Shown: positions 5,376 to 35,957 of the stretch, in pieces
Numbering within the stretch: position 1 is the first letter of the stretch
Layout: each line of letters starts with the position of its first letter
Origin: Halanaerobium saccharolyticum
GTDB lineage: Bacteria > Bacillota > Halanaerobiia > Halanaerobiales > Halanaerobiaceae
Assembly (NCBI RefSeq): GCF_003053565.1
Contig: NZ_QAXS01000032.1
Span: 1-36,050 of the forward strand
Direction: 5' to 3'
DNA length: 36,050 nt
The notes under the pieces: generated by a model
Database searches by the model: none
The model's input: only the letters and a program-made list of their open reading frames with translations
What the model was told of the DNA's origin: nothing
Translations under genes and position numbers: made by a program

Positions 5376-5699
5376 ATGAAAAAAGTAATTAGAGGAACTT
5401 CTTTTCAGAGAACTTATGATGGTAATTTTGATATGAGGGTTTATAAGCAATTTAAAAATATTGCTAAAAACAAAAATCATAGTCTAAATATTTATATAAA
5501 CAAAAAAATTGAAGAGCTTCAGGATGATATAAGATTACAAAAATATAATGAAAATGATTTTTATGAAAATAAGAAACTATTTTTAAAGAAGAAAAATCAC
5601 AAGTTTACTAAAAATATGTATTATATACATGGTCTAAATATGCGTGATTATTTGCAGTCGGTAATGGAAGAAGTAATTAGAAATAACGATATTAGCTAA
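5376..5699 (+). CDS. Small basic protein, possibly DNA-binding
   Basis: A 107-residue Lys/Asn-rich basic protein, divergent from the ribbon-helix-helix coiled-coil gene and sharing its repeat-bearing upstream region. An AGGTGA ribosome binding site precedes the ATG. Residues 18-50 (NFDMRVYKQFKNIAKNKNHSL) could form a strand followed by helices as in ribbon-helix-helix proteins, and the segment around 85-103 (GLNMRDYLQSVMEEVI) looks like a second such helix pair. This is a weak assignment. It may be a partner or second regulator of the neighbouring DNA-binding protein. Confidence 0.7.
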   Translation: MKKVIRGTSFQRTYDGNFDMRVYKQFKNIAKNKNHSLNIYINKKIEELQDDIRLQKYNENDFYENKKLFLKKKNHKFTKNMYYIHGLNMRDYLQSVMEEVIRNNDIS

Positions 5700-5849
5700 A
5701 GCAAAAGATGTTTTGTTTTCTCCTGAGATTTTATTATTAATTTTGTAAGAATGAAAGATCTTTCAAGTTAATTTAAGTAGATAAACGAACAAATGTATGA
5801 TAAAATATACTTAAAACTACTTTTATTTGATTTGAAAGGTGGTATTGAA

Positions 5850-6167
5850 ATGAATTTTAAGGACAGGGGAAATAAGAAGTGGACTGCTATGATGCTTATT
5901 GAGCATAGGGATAGATTGAAAGAATTGAAAGCTAGTGAGAAGGAGAGGAAGAAACCTATTTTAGATGATCAGGAGAAAAAAGTGATCAATTATAGACTGC
6001 AGCAGGCATTGCAGAATAATTTATCTGTAGAAATTAAGTATTATGAGGATAAAAGATTTAAGATAACTAATGGAAGAATAGATAAGGTGGATATTAATCA
6101 GAAATATATTCTTATTAATAATTTAAAAATTCCACTTGATAATTTATTGGAAGTAAAATTAGAGTAA
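5850..6167 (+). CDS. YolD-like protein
   Basis: A 105-residue protein of the YolD-like family: N-terminal KDRGNKKWTAMML...EH, then helices ending RLQQALQNN, then a small beta domain (VEIKYYEDKRFKITNGRIDKV...IPLDNLLEV). YolD-like proteins are common on mobile elements and in SOS-linked operons of Bacillota, often next to a UV-damage polymerase; no polymerase is present here. I placed the start at ATG 5850 because AAAGGTGG lies seven bases before it; an upstream in-frame ATG at 5793 has no ribosome binding site. The biochemical function of the family is not well established. Confidence 0.8.
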   Translation: MNFKDRGNKKWTAMMLIEHRDRLKELKASEKERKKPILDDQEKKVINYRLQQALQNNLSVEIKYYEDKRFKITNGRIDKVDINQKYILINNLKIPLDNLLEVKLE

Positions 6168-25695: not shown

Positions 25696-25950
25696 ATACA
25701 AATCCTTGTTGTAGTGGACTGTTGATTCTGACCCATCTAATAACTGCTATAGATGATTTACATAAGAAAGGTCGTAATCCTTGTTGTAATGGACTGTTGA
25801 TTCTGACAACAATGTCAATCAAGCTAAGGAAAACGCAAAGTCGCAATCCTTGTTGTAGTGGACTGTTGATTCTGACTGGATATCGACCCACTCCTGAAAC
25901 CAGGAGATACAATGTCGCAATCCTTGTTGTAATGGACTGTTGATTCTGAC
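25696..25950 (-). CRISPR. CRISPR array 2, four repeats
   Basis: Four 37-bp repeats start at 25696, 25771, 25840 and 25914, of the same family as array 1 (minus strand ends GGATTGCGAC). Spacers are 38, 32 and 37 bp. The leftmost repeat is degenerate in its last bases. The array lies downstream of the csm-cas6 operon in the same direction, with its leader between them. Confidence 0.95.
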
Positions 25951-26179: not shown

Positions 26180-26857
26180 TTATTTTTCTTTAATGGTTCC
26201 AAATCCTCTTGAGGACGATTGACCTAAACCAATATCTTCAGGGAGTATAATATTCGTAAAGAAAAAACCTTTAAAACCAATCATATTCATACTCTTAAAG
26301 TTAACATTTATGTCTTTTAATACTGGTATGACCTTAATTTCTTCTTCAACCCACCAATCAATACTTTTAGCAAATGAAAGGATATTTCCAATTAAAATTC
26401 TACTTAGAAACTCCACTCTTTTTTCATCACTGCTACCCTGTATTTCACTTTTGTATTTATCAAAGTTTTTTTGATTAAAAGCCATCCAAGGAGTAATAAA
26501 TTCATACTTATAAGGAAGCATCTCTACATCTTCTTTTACAGATAATTCCCAATTAGACATACTTAAATTAACATCAGGCTCTTCATATTCATTTTCTCCT
26601 AGAGTTAATCTATCTATCTCTAAAAAGTTTTCAGCAATTAAAGAAACTCCATCACCTATTGCAATCACGGTTGGCTTCCCTCTTAATATCTTGTACTGAA
26701 TTAAGGGGTAACCATATCTAAATTTATCGTTTTCTTTATGATGATGAAATAATACATCTTCAAATTCATTTGCAAAAAAGCCTCTTAACTTGCGGCCATA
26801 ATCAAGACTCAACCTATCTTCGATATCAAATTCTAATTTTGCCTGCTTTATTTTCAT
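26180..26857 (-). CDS. cas6: CRISPR RNA endonuclease Cas6
   Basis: A 225-residue Cas6. The C-terminal glycine-rich loop typical of the family is clear (LGQSSSRGFGTIKEK), as is the double ferredoxin-like alternation of strands and helices; a GFFFT-type strand precedes it. It would cut the repeat RNA just before the 8-nt handle (ATTGAAAC or ATTGCGAC). The start is taken as ATG 26857, with AAGGATGTGA eight bases upstream; the frame also opens at GTG 26869, which is part of that site. The ribosome binding site lies in a 19-nt piece of CRISPR repeat. It is last in the csm operon, 63 bases after csm5. Confidence 0.9.
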   Translation of the reverse strand: MKIKQAKLEFDIEDRLSLDYGRKLRGFFANEFEDVLFHHHKENDKFRYGYPLIQYKILRGKPTVIAIGDGVSLIAENFLEIDRLTLGENEYEEPDVNLSMSNWELSVKEDVEMLPYKYEFITPWMAFNQKNFDKYKSEIQGSSDEKRVEFLSRILIGNILSFAKSIDWWVEEEIKVIPVLKDINVNFKSMNMIGFKGFFFTNIILPEDIGLGQSSSRGFGTIKEK

Positions 26858-26869
26858 TAATAAATTCAC

Positions 26870-26888
26870 ATCCTTGTTTTAGTGGACT
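26870..26888 (-). repeat. CRISPR-repeat fragment forming the cas6 ribosome binding site
   Basis: On the minus strand, AGTCCACTAAAACAAGGAT is identical to positions 13-31 of the array 3 repeat and spans the expected Cas6 cut site. It is followed by GTGAATT, resembling the TGAAAC end of the repeat. It lies directly upstream of cas6, and its AAGGA is the core of the cas6 ribosome binding site. Confidence 0.85.
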
Positions 26889-26920: not shown

Positions 26921-28231
26921 TTATCCTTTAAGATATTTTTCATATTCTCTCTTATACTTCTTATATAATTTACCTTTTCCTCTCATTCTATCCATTGTAG
27001 CTTTTTTAGCTTCTGATTTACCATACTCACCTTTAATATAATCCATCAATTTTGGATAGTTCTCTTTTTTCTTTTGAATTTTTGCCTCTTTTTTCTTTTC
27101 CATCTTCTTAGATTTTTCTTTAATCTCTTTATTATTTAAAATACTTACATCATGTTTTTCCTCATTTAGGCTGAATACCGCCCAGCCCATTGGAAACTTA
27201 TGATCAGCTAAAACTCTACTAACTGGATTAACCGTTGTTCTTTTATTAGATAAGTTTAAAGTAGTAGAATTAAAACCAATTCCCTTACCAAAGCGGATTA
27301 AAGATTCATTTTCTTCTAAATCAGCATGAATAGATTTTAGATGCTGATAAATCCTAATTGTTTCAGTGGGTGCAGTGTTACTCCTTAAATAATTAAGTTC
27401 AGCTTCGATTAGTTTTTTGCTGAATTCTTTTGTTGCACTCAGTAAATCTTTAGCTGATATTGAATGTCTAACAGAGTTTTTACCATAATTATTATCCTGT
27501 CTTGCTTTATCTATACTTAATTCAGCAAAAATATTCTGCTCTACATTAGAACTAAGAAGCCCTGCAACAGTTTCCTGATAGTATGGAATACCATTTGAAT
27601 TTTCTTTAGTAACATTAACAGAATAGGTTTTATGGATTTCCATATTATCAATATTTAAAGATGAATCTGAAAACTTAACTGTTTGAAAAGGATCTCCAAA
27701 GAAATCTCTATATTCTAAAGCTCCACTTTCAATTTGTTGAGCTTTTCTTCTACTATCTCTAACATTAAAAAAGCCAGCTCTGTTCCTACTAATCTGATAA
27801 TTAATATTATCAGCAAACTTATGCAAATAGGCAGTTCTAAAAGCTCCTTTAAGTGAAGATCCTGGTATATAAGGTCTTCTCTTTGAGTTAATAAACTCAT
27901 CTATTGCTAAATTATTTGCTGACCTTTTAATATTTTTATTATAATCAGTAGCAAAATCACTGCTTGTCTTTCCCTGGTATATAACTGAACTCTTCCAGTT
28001 ATAGTCTGCAATACTGCTTCTTACTTCAACTAGATCCTTTTCCATAATTTTTACTAATTCTTCTCTTTTTTCTGGTGGCATAACATTGAGTAATTCAAAT
28101 AAATCTATACGATAATATTTGCCATTATCATCTACAATATATTCATAAGGCATAATCTCTTCTCCACTACCAATATGAATAGGAGTTAGTGGCTGCAGCT
28201 GCAGATAATATCTTTCTATTGTTTTACTCAC
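26921..28231 (-). CDS. csm5: Type III-A Csm5
   Basis: A 436-residue RAMP protein of the Csm5 family, which caps the 3' end region of the crRNA in the Csm complex and recruits maturation nucleases. The N-terminus (YYLQLQPLTPIHIGSGEEI) and the PGSSLKGAFRTA loop (123-133) are diagnostic. The C-terminal 65 residues are a lysine-rich helical extension (about 370-436), which may bind RNA and is longer than I expect for the family. The start is GTG 28231, eight bases inside the end of csm4, with GGGGGTGA six bases upstream, so the genes are translationally coupled. Confidence 0.92.
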   Translation of the reverse strand: MSKTIERYYLQLQPLTPIHIGSGEEIMPYEYIVDDNGKYYRIDLFELLNVMPPEKREELVKIMEKDLVEVRSSIADYNWKSSVIYQGKTSSDFATDYNKNIKRSANNLAIDEFINSKRRPYIPGSSLKGAFRTAYLHKFADNINYQISRNRAGFFNVRDSRRKAQQIESGALEYRDFFGDPFQTVKFSDSSLNIDNMEIHKTYSVNVTKENSNGIPYYQETVAGLLSSNVEQNIFAELSIDKARQDNNYGKNSVRHSISAKDLLSATKEFSKKLIEAELNYLRSNTAPTETIRIYQHLKSIHADLEENESLIRFGKGIGFNSTTLNLSNKRTTVNPVSRVLADHKFPMGWAVFSLNEEKHDVSILNNKEIKEKSKKMEKKKEAKIQKKKENYPKLMDYIKGEYGKSEAKKATMDRMRGKGKLYKKYKREYEKYLKG

Positions 28232-29228
28232 TCAAATTCACCCCCAGATCAAAAGCATAAGCATATTGAACCACATCTTCTAAAGAATGATGAACATCTG
28301 AAATTAAAGAACCATAACTTCTATCGTTATCATTTTCATCAATCTCAAATGTTGAACCTACATCATAAAAGATTAATGGTTTTTTCCACGGACTATAGTT
28401 AGCTTTTGAATATATAGAACCTACCTTACCTCTTTTTGTTTTTAACTTGTAATTTCCTTCTGGAATTTCAGACTCAGGTATATAAGAAGATAAAGTCATG
28501 AAATGATTTGGATTATCAGCTTCAGGTAGTTTAACTTCTTTAAAGTCTAAAACATCAAACTGTCCTTTACCTGTTGTCTTTTTACTACCAAACCCTTCAT
28601 AAGATAAAGCATTGAAATTATCTTTCCAAAAATCAAGCTTTTCTTCAGGGAATCTTAAATAAATATCTATATCATCATGATATGTAATTTCAGTTCTAGT
28701 AAACAATTCACCATCGGTTGCACTATTAGACAATCTATTTATCATATTATGATATCTATCCTTTGATGTCATAAATGGTTTTGGCTGATGAAATGCATCT
28801 TGATATTTTTCTTCTATTTCATCAATATTTTTAGCAACAATATCTTTAATAATTCTTTCTAGACTGAAATCATTCACATATTTTTTGAAAGTATCTATTG
28901 GTAGATATTTTTCCTTTTTTATTTTCTTTATTAATCTGATAACTGTATTCATTTTCTCAGGTTCAACAAATACAAAGGCATCTTCCACTAGTTGCCTCAC
29001 TTTGCTTCTAGCAATTCCTTCTGTTATTGGAAATGGTATAGTATCCTTTTGTACTCCAGAAGAAATTAAAAATTGTGGTTTATCTTCATAATTTTTTAGA
29101 AAATCTACTAACTTTTCTTCACTATAATTCCAGCGGATCAACCAACATAGACTACCAAATAATGTGTCAGAGTCTAAGGGGGTGATAAAAGATGTACTGG
29201 GACGTATAGTTACTTTGTAGTTTTTCAT
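28224..29228 (-). CDS. csm4: Type III-A Csm4
   Basis: A 334-residue RAMP protein that binds the 5' handle of the crRNA and anchors Cas10. It starts with a ferredoxin strand (KNYKVTIRPSTSFITPLDSDTLFG), the last part being the conserved DT(L/I)FG motif of Csm4, and carries a glycine-rich loop EGFGSKKTTGKG at 211-222. It lies 15 bases after csm3 and overlaps csm5 by eight bases. GGTGGTGA precedes the ATG. Length and order are normal for type III-A. Confidence 0.93.
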   Translation of the reverse strand: MKNYKVTIRPSTSFITPLDSDTLFGSLCWLIRWNYSEEKLVDFLKNYEDKPQFLISSGVQKDTIPFPITEGIARSKVRQLVEDAFVFVEPEKMNTVIRLIKKIKKEKYLPIDTFKKYVNDFSLERIIKDIVAKNIDEIEEKYQDAFHQPKPFMTSKDRYHNMINRLSNSATDGELFTRTEITYHDDIDIYLRFPEEKLDFWKDNFNALSYEGFGSKKTTGKGQFDVLDFKEVKLPEADNPNHFMTLSSYIPESEIPEGNYKLKTKRGKVGSIYSKANYSPWKKPLIFYDVGSTFEIDENDNDRSYGSLISDVHHSLEDVVQYAYAFDLGVNLSE

Positions 29229-29243
29229 GATTAATTCACCACC

Positions 29244-29939
29244 CTATAAACTAATGTCTGCTAAATCAATCTCATTTGTAGATCCATTAATTTCTTCTGT
29301 AAGATTTTTGAATTTAATTTTTCCATATCCTCTACTTCCAGATCCACCAATAGCATCTAACTCAAGCATCTTTAGTCCTTTTTTAATCAATTCATAGTTT
29401 TCTTTATCTGTTTGACCGCCATCATCCATATCAATAATCTTATATACTAACTCAAATTTAAAGCTCACACCAGCAGGTACTCTTTCCATAGGACGAGGCA
29501 CAGCTGATGAATCAAGACGATTGATGGTATTTTCAGTTTTCAATTCAGTAAAATCTTGACCTGTTTTTTCCTTTAGTTCCTGCAATTCTTTTTCTGACTC
29601 TTCTGTTAGATAACTATCTCTAAAAAGTAGTCTTCCAGGTCCAAACTGTACATCATTTTCACCAGCACTGATACCAAAAGAACGACAGATAAAGCAGCTG
29701 TCATCTGTACAACTATGTGGATCTCCTTTTTTATCTATTTTGCCCAAATACCATTCTAGAAGAGTTCTTGCTTTACCTTTTAATGATGAACCTGGAATAT
29801 ATGGTTTGTTAGACTTACCATCTCTAATAACAGGGTTATCATTACCACCTATTTCAATAGTATCGGAACTACCACCAATTCTTAAACCTGTTTTTGTTTC
29901 AATTTCTCCTCTAATAACTCTATATTCTAATAATCTCAT
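29244..29939 (-). CDS. csm3: Type III-A Csm3 (backbone RNase)
   Basis: A 231-residue backbone subunit that cleaves target RNA at 6-nt steps. The GLRIGGSS start is followed by IEIGGNDNPVIRD, with Asp34 at the place of the catalytic Asp33 of the Streptococcus thermophilus protein, then YIPGSSLKGK (47-56). Cys77, Cys82 and Cys85 form the usual zinc-binding segment before RSFG. The C-terminus has GSGSRGYGKI. Its ATG overlaps the csm2 stop (TAATG). With the catalytic Asp present, target RNA cleavage should be active. Confidence 0.95.
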   Translation of the reverse strand: MRLLEYRVIRGEIETKTGLRIGGSSDTIEIGGNDNPVIRDGKSNKPYIPGSSLKGKARTLLEWYLGKIDKKGDPHSCTDDSCFICRSFGISAGENDVQFGPGRLLFRDSYLTEESEKELQELKEKTGQDFTELKTENTINRLDSSAVPRPMERVPAGVSFKFELVYKIIDMDDGGQTDKENYELIKKGLKMLELDAIGGSGSRGYGKIKFKNLTEEINGSTNEIDLADISL

Positions 29940-30391
29940 TATCTATTTCCCTCCCCACCGTGGCCGTAGAAGTATCCTACTACGGTTTCAAAAAAAGTTG
30001 TGAAATTATCAAATGACTGGTAATTTCTTTCTTTAGATACTATTTCAACATTCTTGATAATGAAGTCTTTAAAACTTTCAGGAATCTTTTTATTTCTTCC
30101 GCCACCTCTATAAGCATAATTAGCTTTTGCTTTAAGCATTAATATAAAAGGAAGACTTTCAGAAAAGTTTTCTTCTGTTATTTGTGCGTCTAAAGCTTTA
30201 ACCTCATTATAAAATTTTCTTAACTGAGAACTTGATAGTTTTTCATATCTTTGACTCCTATTTATTCCACCATTTGCAAATAACATCCCTAGTTTATCAG
30301 CTTCATCTTCGATAAGCTCTAATTTGAAATTTCCCTCTTCATCTAGATAGCCAGACTCCAGGGTATTCCAATTATAATTATATTTCGCCAT
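29939..30391 (-). CDS. csm2: Type III-A Csm2 (small subunit)
   Basis: A 150-residue helical protein, the small subunit that forms the inner filament of the Csm complex along the crRNA-target duplex. Family features are the LRKFYNEVKAL helix, a LMLKAKANYAYRGG segment and the C-terminal FTTFFETVVGYF. It carries a 20-residue N-terminal part (YNWNTLESGYLDEEGNF) before the core. It is one base overlapped by csm3 and 17 bases after cas10. AGGGGG lies before the ATG. Confidence 0.92.
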   Translation of the reverse strand: MAKYNYNWNTLESGYLDEEGNFKLELIEDEADKLGMLFANGGINRSQRYEKLSSSQLRKFYNEVKALDAQITEENFSESLPFILMLKAKANYAYRGGGRNKKIPESFKDFIIKNVEIVSKERNYQSFDNFTTFFETVVGYFYGHGGEGNR

Positions 30392-30408
30392 TTTTTATAA
30401 CCCCCTTA

Positions 30409-32766
30409 TTACCTGTTTCGATATAATGACCAGTGATATGGAAGTTTAAAGTTTTCTACGCCTCTCATACCATCTTTTTCTTCTAAGAATAAATCAACTA
30501 AATCATCCAATGCTTTTTGCATCTTTTTATCTCTGTTGAATTTTTTATTATCATAAAAATTCCTACCAAGATCATACTGGAACATACCTATCCATTTTCG
30601 CTCTTTAGTATCATTATTTTCCTGATATCTTTTTTCTTGTCCTGCATATCTATTTAATCTTCTAACAAAGCTCATTGAAAAATAGTCTTCCTGGATAGAT
30701 TCGTCTAATAAATTAGCTAAAGGTAATACTCTCAACCATTTATCCCATTTTTGACTCTCTCCAAATACACTAAAGGCATTTCTACCAGATTCTTTTGCTC
30801 TTTCTTCTTCATTAGTTGCCATTTGGGCACTCATAGCTATTGGATATTTAGGTTTTACTAATGACAGACCTGCTGAAATAGTTACATTATCATTATTGGC
30901 TGTATAATCTCTAAAACTATCATTAATATAAAATGAAGTTAAAAGTAGATTATCCCAGGGACCTAATATTAAAAGATCATCTCCACCAGCATAGACAATA
31001 TAGTTTTTATCCAGTTTAGCTGAGCAATTACTATAAGTTACTTCCTTTGCTTTAGCAAAGTTTTCTGGCAATACTTTACTGAAATAATAATCAACCATTC
31101 TACTTAAAGAAACTATTTCAGAAAAATTAATCTCCTTTGAACCAAGTCCGATTGAGAATATACTCCCCAGCATATCTACATCTGCTTTTAATACACCTAA
31201 AGCTTGAAGTCCTTCCTCTCTTTCACTTACAGAAGAAGCCGCTAAGCAGCTAAATAGATAAGGAAAATCTTCAAAGTAGTTTTTTCTTTCAGTACATTCC
31301 TCATCTCCACACTGTTTACAAAGTTCAAACTTTTCTCCTCGATCAGTAAAAGTAGGAATATAGCTTGAATAGGTGCCAAGTATTTCAGGTACAGCAGGTG
31401 ATATATTATCATCTTTGATATTTACTAAAAGATCATATTTTTCCTCTGTTATTTTATCTTCTAATAATGAGATATAGATCGGGCTCTCATCAAAAAGCTT
31501 AATATCATAATTTGTGCTAGAACCATTAAATTTATAGGCAATATAATTAGCTGAAGTTAAATTCTTACCTATATTTAAATCCTGCTCACAAAAATGACAT
31601 AAATCAGAATCCTCTTTAGTCCAAAGCTTATTACATGACTCACATAAGTCTGCATTTGCTCCATATTGTGAATCTAGCTGGAATGACTGATTATCTTCTA
31701 AGAATTCTTTGAATTTATGGTTTTTATTCTTCTCTAATCTTTCATTGATCACTTCATAAACTACACCAAAATCACTGAACTTTTTACCTTTGAAATCTAC
31801 ACTGGCAAAGTTGAAATACAACTCTGACTGAAATTTATCATAAAACCAGTTATTAATCATTTTAGATGTGTTAACTAAAAGTTCTTCAGTTTCTTTAGTG
31901 TTTGGTGCTAATAGATAGAATTTACCTCCTGCAGAAATAATTTTTGCAGCCTGAGGAAGTTCTAATTTATATAAGAGTTGGTGTAAAATAGCCTCTCCTA
32001 ATATTGAAACAAAAAAGGATCTAGCTCTTAGTCTCTTAGAAACTCCTCCAGAATTAATCTTTGCAATATCATAAATATAGCTTTGAATTCCTGATAAATC
32101 TCCACCTATTAATTTAAAGCTTTTTTCATTTTCTTCTTCCTGATTTGAATTCTTATATAGAATAATAGAAATTGAAGTTACTAAATGCACATGGTCTACC
32201 AGAGTATCTTTGCTACCTTTTCTTTCTGGATAAGACCAACCATACTTTTCAATTAAACTATATAAATTATCTGCCCAATGATCACTGTCTTTGCTTTTTA
32301 AAATTTTCATTAATTCTGTTTTGAAGCTTGAAGCAGCTTTAGAAAGATCTTCATCTCTAATCTCTTTTTTGTCTACTGGAAAAGAATTAGCTGCATTTAT
32401 CTTTGAAGGCAAATAATATTTTTCACTATTGATATCTGCTTTACCTATATCAATATTTGAAAATATGTTTTTTAAAGGCTTGTATGTATAATCGGAATCT
32501 AAATCAAGTCCAATTAACTGATGAGCCTCTTCAATGAAATAGGCTAAGCTATTTTCATCTTTTTCTTGAGAAGAAAATAAATCAGATAAAACTTGATGTA
32601 CTTCTTTTGAAGTTTCATTATCAATTGAATCTAATAGGTCTAAAATTCTTTTTTGATAATCAAAAGCTTTATCTTTATCTTCAACCAATAACTTAGCTGA
32701 ATCGTGAAGTAATGATGATAAAGTTAATATTTTCTCTTTATGATTATTAATTTTTCGCACCTCCAT
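30409..32766 (-). CDS. cas10: Cas10/Csm1, large subunit of the type III-A complex
   Basis: A 785-residue Cas10 of Csm1 type. It has an N-terminal HD nuclease domain (LLHDSAK, His21-Asp22, for single-stranded DNA cleavage), a first palm (GGDLSGIQSYIYD, 221-233), a four-cysteine zinc finger (375, 378, 390, 393) and the cyclase palm with GGDD at 594-597, so cyclic oligoadenylate synthesis should be active. It is first in the operon, with motif-bearing promoter P4 about 140 bases upstream. The ATG at 32766 has no ribosome binding site. A perfect GGAGGTG lies inside its first codons, eight bases before an in-frame ATT (codon 6, 32751), so the true start may be that ATT. Confidence 0.96.
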   Translation of the reverse strand: MEVRKINNHKEKILTLSSLLHDSAKLLVEDKDKAFDYQKRILDLLDSIDNETSKEVHQVLSDLFSSQEKDENSLAYFIEEAHQLIGLDLDSDYTYKPLKNIFSNIDIGKADINSEKYYLPSKINAANSFPVDKKEIRDEDLSKAASSFKTELMKILKSKDSDHWADNLYSLIEKYGWSYPERKGSKDTLVDHVHLVTSISIILYKNSNQEEENEKSFKLIGGDLSGIQSYIYDIAKINSGGVSKRLRARSFFVSILGEAILHQLLYKLELPQAAKIISAGGKFYLLAPNTKETEELLVNTSKMINNWFYDKFQSELYFNFASVDFKGKKFSDFGVVYEVINERLEKNKNHKFKEFLEDNQSFQLDSQYGANADLCESCNKLWTKEDSDLCHFCEQDLNIGKNLTSANYIAYKFNGSSTNYDIKLFDESPIYISLLEDKITEEKYDLLVNIKDDNISPAVPEILGTYSSYIPTFTDRGEKFELCKQCGDEECTERKNYFEDFPYLFSCLAASSVSEREEGLQALGVLKADVDMLGSIFSIGLGSKEINFSEIVSLSRMVDYYFSKVLPENFAKAKEVTYSNCSAKLDKNYIVYAGGDDLLILGPWDNLLLTSFYINDSFRDYTANNDNVTISAGLSLVKPKYPIAMSAQMATNEEERAKESGRNAFSVFGESQKWDKWLRVLPLANLLDESIQEDYFSMSFVRRLNRYAGQEKRYQENNDTKERKWIGMFQYDLGRNFYDNKKFNRDKKMQKALDDLVDLFLEEKDGMRGVENFKLPYHWSLYRNR

Positions 32767-34042: not shown

Positions 34043-34881
34043 ATAATAATCCTTGTTGTAGTGGACTTAGTCATTAGACTGTTGGAATTTGAGATTGCTG
34101 TTTGGGACAGAGAAAAGTTTCAATCCTTGTTGTAATGGACTGTTGATTCTGACTTTAGTAGGACACGCAGGTATTGGTAAAAGTAATATCTCACAATCCT
34201 TGTTTTAATGGACTTAGTCATTAGACTAGTAGAGGATACATACACTTTAGGACTGTTAATCAGTTTCAATCCTTGTTTTAGTGGACTTGGTCATTAGACT
34301 TTGCTGATATTGATACCGCAACCTTCTATAGATAGTTTCAATCCTTGTTTTAGTGGACTTGGTCATTAGACAAAGAAGAATGGAAAGTATTATTAAATAA
34401 TTATGAGTTTCAATCCTTGTTTTAGTGGACTTGGTCATTAGACTAGAACATTTGATACTTACGATGGTATCCCAATTGTGTTTCAATCCTTGTTTTAGTG
34501 GACTTGGTCATTAGACGGTTATTCAATTATAGCTTATGCAGCTAAGGAGGAGTTTCAATCCTTGTTTTAGTGGACTTGGTCATTAGACAGCTAGAAGGGA
34601 CCAGTTAGAAAAAGAGTTGATGGAGTTTCAATCCTTGTTTTAGTGGACTTGGTCATTAGACAGTCTGCAATTAAATCTCTATCAAAAGTTTGGTCAGTTT
34701 CAATCCTTGTTTTAATGGACTTAGTCATTAGACCATAAAAGTATTATTGGAACATTCAATTGCAATGCGTTTCAATCCTTGTTTTAATGGACTTAGTCAT
34801 TAGACCCAGATATAACAGCAGCAACTTATATATTATGAAGGATAGTTTCAATCCTTGTTTTAATGGACTTAGTCATTAGAC
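34043..34881 (-). CRISPR. CRISPR array 3, twelve repeats
   Basis: Twelve 37-bp repeats start at 34043, 34117, 34190, 34263, 34335, 34407, 34480, 34552, 34625, 34697, 34769 and 34845. The minus-strand consensus begins GTCTAATGACCAAGTCCA and ends ACAAGGATTGAAAC, so the handle is ATTGAAAC. Eleven spacers are 35-39 bp. Repeats 4-9 share one variant and repeats 3 and 10-12 another (TTAGTGG...TTGG against TTAATGG...TTAG on the plus strand). Repeat 2 is a hybrid: its GTTTC end is of this family, the rest matches arrays 1 and 2. Repeat 1 is degenerate, marking the leader-distal end. Confidence 0.97.
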
Positions 34882-35129: not shown

Positions 35130-35762
35130 TTATTTTTCACCTGCAATAAATAAAGATTGAGCATTTCTATCCTTCAATTTATCAAATTCCTCTACGTAAT
35201 TCTCATATAGTTTAGCAATTTCATCATATGGAATATCACTTTCCTTATTTTTTTTATTCATATTATCAGCTTTTATTATAATTAAAAAATCTTCAATCAA
35301 TAATGGACTGTAATAAATTGCATTAAACATATCTACTATAGTTCCTGGTCTAAGCTGGTTCCAGTTTTTAATCATCATATGATACCTTATAACTACTTTA
35401 GCTGAATCAATATATTCAGGTGGTAATTTACCTTCTGCAATCTCGCATAACTTTTCAAGGCCAACCTTCTCATGAGCATAATGATGGGGTAATATATCTT
35501 CTTCTGTTTCTAATTTACCGATATCATGCATTAAAGCAGCAAATAAAACATTAATTTCATCTGTTTCTGCTGCTACATAATCAATTATCATCATTAGATG
35601 ATCAAAGGTATTATCATGAAAATGATATTTTTTCATTTCAGGTACAGATTTAAGTTTATATAAAGCAGGAAATATTTCTTTTCCTGTTTTTTTATTATTT
35701 TTAAAGTACAATGATGGCTTTTTAGATGACAAAGCTTTAATTATAAAATCCTCTAAGTTCAT
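35130..35762 (-). CDS. HD-domain phosphohydrolase-like protein
   Basis: A 210-residue protein with an HD metal-dependent phosphohydrolase domain: His55 in FDHLMMIIDYV, His79-Asp80 in LMHDIGKLE, His93-His94 and His97 in LPHHYAHEKVG, and His128 in RYHMM. The arrangement resembles the C-terminal HD domain of bacterial CCA-adding enzymes and other standalone HD proteins. The substrate is likely a phosphoester or nucleotide. It lies between arrays 3 and 4 with no other cas gene adjacent. Hydrolysis of a signal nucleotide would suit its place, but that is inference; housekeeping roles are as likely. GAGGA precedes the ATG. Confidence 0.8.
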   Translation of the reverse strand: MNLEDFIIKALSSKKPSLYFKNNKKTGKEIFPALYKLKSVPEMKKYHFHDNTFDHLMMIIDYVAAETDEINVLFAALMHDIGKLETEEDILPHHYAHEKVGLEKLCEIAEGKLPPEYIDSAKVVIRYHMMIKNWNQLRPGTIVDMFNAIYYSPLLIEDFLIIIKADNMNKKNKESDIPYDEIAKLYENYVEEFDKLKDRNAQSLFIAGEK

Positions 35763-35783: not shown

Positions 35784-35957
35784 AATTTTATCCTTGTTGT
35801 AGTGGACTGTTTATTCTGACTTAGTAATCATGGTATTGACATAAGTGTAGATAAATGTTCCAATCCTTGTTGTAGTGGACTGTTTATTCTAACGAGATTA
35901 AAAGAAGAATGGATGATAATGGTTATACTACGTCGCAATCCTTGTTGTAATGGACTG
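35784..35957 (-). CRISPR. CRISPR array 4, cut by an insertion sequence
   Basis: Repeats of the array 1/2 family start at 35784 (degenerate), 35857 and 35932; spacers are 36 and 38 bp. The third repeat stops after GGACTG, where the IS3-family element begins, so the array continues, if at all, beyond the window. The degenerate repeat on the left shows the leader lies to the right, as in the other arrays. Confidence 0.9.

Follow-up and report, generated by a model that had tools for sequence, protein, structure and literature searches.

A solitary CRISPR repeat core lies at the predicted ribosome-binding site of cas6 in a Halanaerobium type III-A locus

Between csm5 and cas6 of a Halanaerobium type III-A locus lies a solitary 19-nt CRISPR repeat core, which supplies one half of the predicted Shine-Dalgarno sequence of cas6. 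On balance we favor the view that the fragment is a remnant of a CRISPR repeat that has been recruited as the cas6 ribosome-binding site. The window (the whole 36,050-nt stretch of DNA that was analyzed) carries on its minus strand, in order, cas10/csm1, csm2, csm3, csm4, csm5 and cas6, beyond which come a leader and array 2. Upstream of cas10 is array 3, downstream of cas1 is array 1, and one more array is cut off by the high end of the contig. The features that matter most are as follows.

28224–32766, minus strand: csm4, csm3, csm2 and cas10/csm1 (NCBIfam matches)
26921–28231, minus strand: csm5, final gene of the csm1–5 (type III-A) operon (TIGR01899)
26870–26888, minus strand: solitary 19-nt CRISPR repeat core AGTCCACTAAAACAAGGAT, outside the arrays (exact match to array 3; core conserved in Cas6b-type repeats)
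26180–26857, minus strand: cas6 (Cas6b family), 225 aa, ATG start at 26857 (PF17955 and PF17262; alignment)
34049–34881, minus strand: array 3, repeat GTCTAATGACCAAGTCCACTAAAACAAGGATTGAAAC, closest match to the csm5–cas6 fragment
25702–25950, minus strand: array 2, repeat GTCAGAATCAACAGTCCACTACAACAAGGATTGCGAC, 3' of cas6 after a leader

The fragment is placed 32 nt past the csm5 stop codon and 12 nt ahead of the cas6 ATG. The original prediction held that an exact copy of the array core stands upstream of cas6 and that this copy is closer to array 3 than to arrays 1 and 2; both points were borne out. All 19 positions are identical to the cores of six array-3 repeats, and a single mismatch separates the fragment from the core of arrays 1 and 2. 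Across the 3.2-Mb genome, matches to the core pattern AGTCCAYTAMAACAAGGAT are restricted to the window contig and contig C65, and every match other than the csm5–cas6 copy belongs to an array or to an array remnant that has its leader. That the core is otherwise found only in arrays and their remnants supports the further claim that the fragment, with the expected Cas6 site it carries, originated from a repeat.

The simplest rival to this conclusion is that the cas6 leader resembles the repeat by chance, since both contain AAGGA. The repeat family does end in the Shine-Dalgarno-like AAGGAT, and a weaker match in Halonatronum (see below) could be accidental. We nevertheless find the idea scarcely credible, and for the fragment in the window it is refuted: the identity is complete, the exact core has no second copy outside arrays and remnants, and a search of the window allowing up to three mismatches returned 25 matches where shuffled sequences gave an expectation of 0.02.

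A comparison of 26 repeats from Cas6b systems (Halanaerobiia, Bacteroidota, archaea and others) shows that they have TCCA..A.AA.AAGGAT in common and differ in their 5' halves. The fragment is thus the family-conserved core: it agrees with nnTCCAnnAnAAnAAGGAT at 19 of 19 positions and has a PWM score of 27.9. It is not a full-length repeat, lacking both the variable 5' half and the handle (TGAAAC/TGCGAC), and the adjoining 12 nt and 6 nt do not significantly resemble the remainder of the repeat (p about 0.5 for each). Neither is it regularly spaced with respect to other repeats, the nearest being about 950 nt away. Uniform decay of a repeat does not explain this pattern, in which the flanks look random and the core is kept intact.

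The relation of the core to the start of cas6 depends on a small number of overlapping elements.

26866–26875, minus strand: composite Shine-Dalgarno AAGGATGTGA, with AAGGAT repeat-derived and GTGA non-repeat (predicted duplex with the 16S 3' end)
26871–26872, minus strand: predicted Cas6 cleavage point GG^AT, deduced from the 8-nt 5' handle (ATTGAAAC/ATTGCGAC) that Cas6-processed repeats usually have
26884–26887, minus strand: 5' arm GUCC of a small predicted hairpin with a 10-nt loop, the 3' arm being GGAU at 26870–26873 (RNA folding of repeat and leader)

The position of the ATG at 26857 is backed by N-terminal alignment with relatives. AAGGA alone (26875–26871) ends 13 nt ahead of this ATG, which is a long spacing. 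The best pairing with the anti-Shine-Dalgarno is AAGGA-u-GUGA, at −10.5 kcal/mol, and ends 8 nt before the ATG, within the 5–10 nt from the start at which pairing to the 16S 3' end is expected. Because this pairing spans the edge of the repeat, one half of the Shine-Dalgarno is of repeat origin and the other half is not. The original prediction that AAGGA serves as the cas6 Shine-Dalgarno therefore stands in part: the repeat supplies half of the site, but AAGGA by itself is rather far from the ATG and it is GTGA that completes the site. Pairing of an intact repeat to 16S is weaker (−5.8 kcal/mol), and this difference speaks for a relic put to use. Values for csm2 to csm5 range from −11 to −14 kcal/mol, the cas6 site being comparable to those of csm2 and csm3. 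We suggest that the repeat-borne AAGGAT and the non-repeat GTGA would together have become a strong composite Shine-Dalgarno, the predicted role of the fragment being ribosome recruitment to cas6.

The ends of the arrays in this genome provide information on how such a fragment could arise. The terminal repeat of every array retains the 5' half and the core, but its handle is lost at AAGGAT or shortly beyond it (35808, 34067, 25720 and 17427 in the window; 5701, 2340 and 1182 on C65), which is the same 3' boundary as in the fragment. One of these leader-distal repeats is a precedent for a repeat remnant beside a gene start.

35790–35808, minus strand: array-terminal repeat that breaks off after AAGGAT and lies 27 nt ahead of an ORF with its start at 35762

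These terminal repeats differ from the fragment in that they keep the 5' 12 nt and close an array; the fragment lacks those 12 nt and has no array ahead of it. A repeat at 35938–35956 shows the same breakpoint as the fragment on the 5' side, its first 12 nt being replaced by unrelated DNA. A relative, G039, has cas6 between two direct CRISPR repeats, with the stop codon inside the second (L024:9251-10123), a layout that fits the movement of cas6 by recombination in arrays. Each of these observations favors a relic, as do the uniqueness of the exact core and its absence from most relatives. The source would most likely have been the leader-distal repeat of an array formerly situated between csm5 and cas6; alternatively, a repeat may have arrived when a rearrangement fused the cas6 and csm modules. 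Loss of an array end together with one rearrangement cut on the 5' side would explain the fragment without selection. Three points argue in the other direction. The 13 nt upstream of AAGGAT are unneeded for a Shine-Dalgarno, yet are identical to the array-3 core; a degenerate core occupies the same place in Halonatronum, which is unexpected from a one-off relic; and no leader, spacer or second-repeat remnant is present between csm5 and cas6.

Several further features of these regions were noted. The ORF close to the terminal repeat (35130–35762) is of HD-domain type and similar to part of CCA-adding enzymes. The unrelated DNA at the 35938–35956 repeat is possibly the end of an insertion element and lies close to the contig edge. 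G039 has a degenerate half repeat after the first of the two repeats that flank cas6. On the minus strand of C65 (L039), near 1164–1300 and 5680–5870, there is a leader that runs into a single truncated repeat with a terminator-like hairpin after it, as well as a one-spacer array of this design; these may be minimal arrays.

The cas6 product has domain matches to Cas6b_N and Cas6b_C, and the nearest solved structure is a Cas6b, 4Z7K/4Z7L (4Z7K match at 3e-53). RNA folding of the core predicts a stem of 4–5 bp with a 10-nt loop, the expected cut GG^AU falling in the 3' arm and GGAU being mostly paired; the fold is weak and not significantly better than that of shuffled sequences. The hairpin need not be required, since the 4Z7K/4Z7L enzyme is one that we take to handle a non-stem-loop repeat. 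As the fragment retains the expected cut site, it is probably still at least a weak Cas6 substrate.

It is plausible, although less likely than not, that Cas6 acts on this core in its own mRNA, by binding or by cutting, as a form of feedback. Bound Cas6 would make the GGAU-containing hairpin more stable and conceal the Shine-Dalgarno; a cut at GG^AU would strip AAGG from the cas6 message and detach it from the csm mRNA. Either way, free Cas6 would curb its own production, while abundant pre-crRNA, by drawing the enzyme away, would let translation resume. Consistent with such autoregulation, the 19 nt retained are exactly the family-conserved core plus the predicted hairpin with its cut site, the GGAU is predicted to be mostly paired, and regulatory ectopic degenerate repeats are already known (PMC9458426, PMC12737573). 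Set against it are the unexceptional fold, the loss of the 5' 12 nt that all terminal repeats of this genome possess, such that the affinity of Cas6 may be low, and the availability of a simpler origin, from a terminal repeat left behind when an array was lost.

Evidence from relatives bears on both the remnant and the feedback proposals. Close relatives of the csm5–cas6 junction were found in none of 59 genomes of the class, 398 genomes of the phylum, plasmids or viral contigs, and the best Csm5 relative is about 30% identical. Cas6 relatives were found in 18 other genomes and 57 GTDB loci. In Halonatronum saccharophilum, whose Cas6 is 55–56% identical and belongs to a type I-B system, a repeat-like leader sits between cas3 and cas6. 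It contains ATTCCATTAAAATAAGGGG at −29, a degenerate copy matching the core at 14 of 19 positions, with the same stem register, a 5-bp stem that includes G-U pairs, and the 10-nt loop. This copy forms the predicted Shine-Dalgarno of cas6 (−10.0 kcal/mol), its 16-mer is unique in the Halonatronum genome, and by repeat-family score the 13 nt upstream of AAGG exceed every non-array AAGG site scanned (n = 2565 AAGG sites in all). These properties are suggestive of a degenerate core in the cas6 leader, and they count in favor of autoregulation. The strength of the match must be read with care, because an identity of 14/19 to that genome's own repeat is also attained in about 3 of 188 random 90-nt windows. 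A second near-match in Halonatronum (C2:35928) was set aside, there being no sign of a surrounding repeat array.

Halonatronum is the one case of a degenerate core in a cas6 leader among about 20 Halanaerobiia Cas6b genes. The other Cas6b genes examined have no such core, and at 19 more distant Cas6 loci with arrays the best agreement was 12/19, which is chance level. These absences weigh against autoregulation, and a general rule for cas6 leaders was rejected. The Saprospiraceae leader L061 had a score of 8.8. The broader proposition, that on at least two occasions, in the type III-A locus of Halanaerobium and the type I-B locus of Halonatronum, a repeat core was taken up as a cas6 ribosome-binding site that makes translation sensitive to free Cas6, is speculative and in our view rather doubtful. 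Such a loop would be guide-free and post-transcriptional, and thus distinct from promoter repression of the CreR type.

Standalone repeats near cas genes are mostly mini-arrays that target promoters, mainly in type I and V-A systems. They share with the fragment a position beside cas genes; we know of none among them that lies within the Shine-Dalgarno of a type III-A cas6. Also related are the CreA/CreR ectopic-repeat RNAs, crRNA-like guides that direct Cascade or Cas12a to a promoter (PMC9458426, PMC12737573). The fragment resembles these in being a repeat outside the arrays of a CRISPR-Cas locus (theirs is degenerate) with a Cas6 site (predicted here); feedback on cas expression is a feature of CreR itself. 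The differences are that the fragment has no guide, second repeat or promoter of its own, and that it is a repeat within an mRNA, where it forms the ribosome-binding site. A solitary ectopic repeat beside a cas gene, as in CreR systems (PMC12737573), could in principle yield a crRNA-like guide with the cas6 mRNA as the guide part. We judge this very unlikely: the handle reads ATGTGAAT rather than the conserved ATTGAAAC, a second repeat is missing, the supposed 'guide' would have the same sense as cas6, and the only promoter-like match nearby is weak and misplaced. The combination of a repeat and a guide that partly matches a promoter, by which CreR/CreA elements are recognized, is lacking.

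Two other parallels can be drawn. Phage repeat mimics that bind Cas6 are known (PMC10651486). PERSIST is reported to use synthetic mRNAs in which a CRISPR endoRNase site controls expression (PMC9095627); it shares with the fragment such a site within an mRNA (predicted here) and differs in being engineered and in other organisms. The literature searched, which did not include Shmakov 2023, yielded no account of Cas6 controlling its own mRNA by way of a repeat, and within the same bounds a repeat core as cas6 ribosome-binding site appears to be new.

Should the Cas6 site in the cas6 ribosome-binding site be functional, it would constitute a simple feedback loop. To our knowledge, little is known of how free Cas6 is matched to the supply of pre-crRNA in type I and III systems. 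Even as a relic, the fragment would illustrate how new gene-control sequences can be seeded by CRISPR repeats, and it fits a picture in which recombination in arrays moves cas6 modules.

A separate solitary repeat hairpin, GTGAAATTAATCCAYTAWAATAAGGATTGAAKAATTTCAC, was noted in three Halanaerobium genomes, as one copy per genome beside a WYL-type regulator gene (L030:18164-18203, L036:9079-9118 and L182, the last at G004 C12:93042-93081). In two of the three, where it is antisense and occupies the gap ahead of a type I-B cas8b, the sequence that would serve as its guide has a weak match to the region upstream of that gene. The hairpin is a CreR-like candidate.
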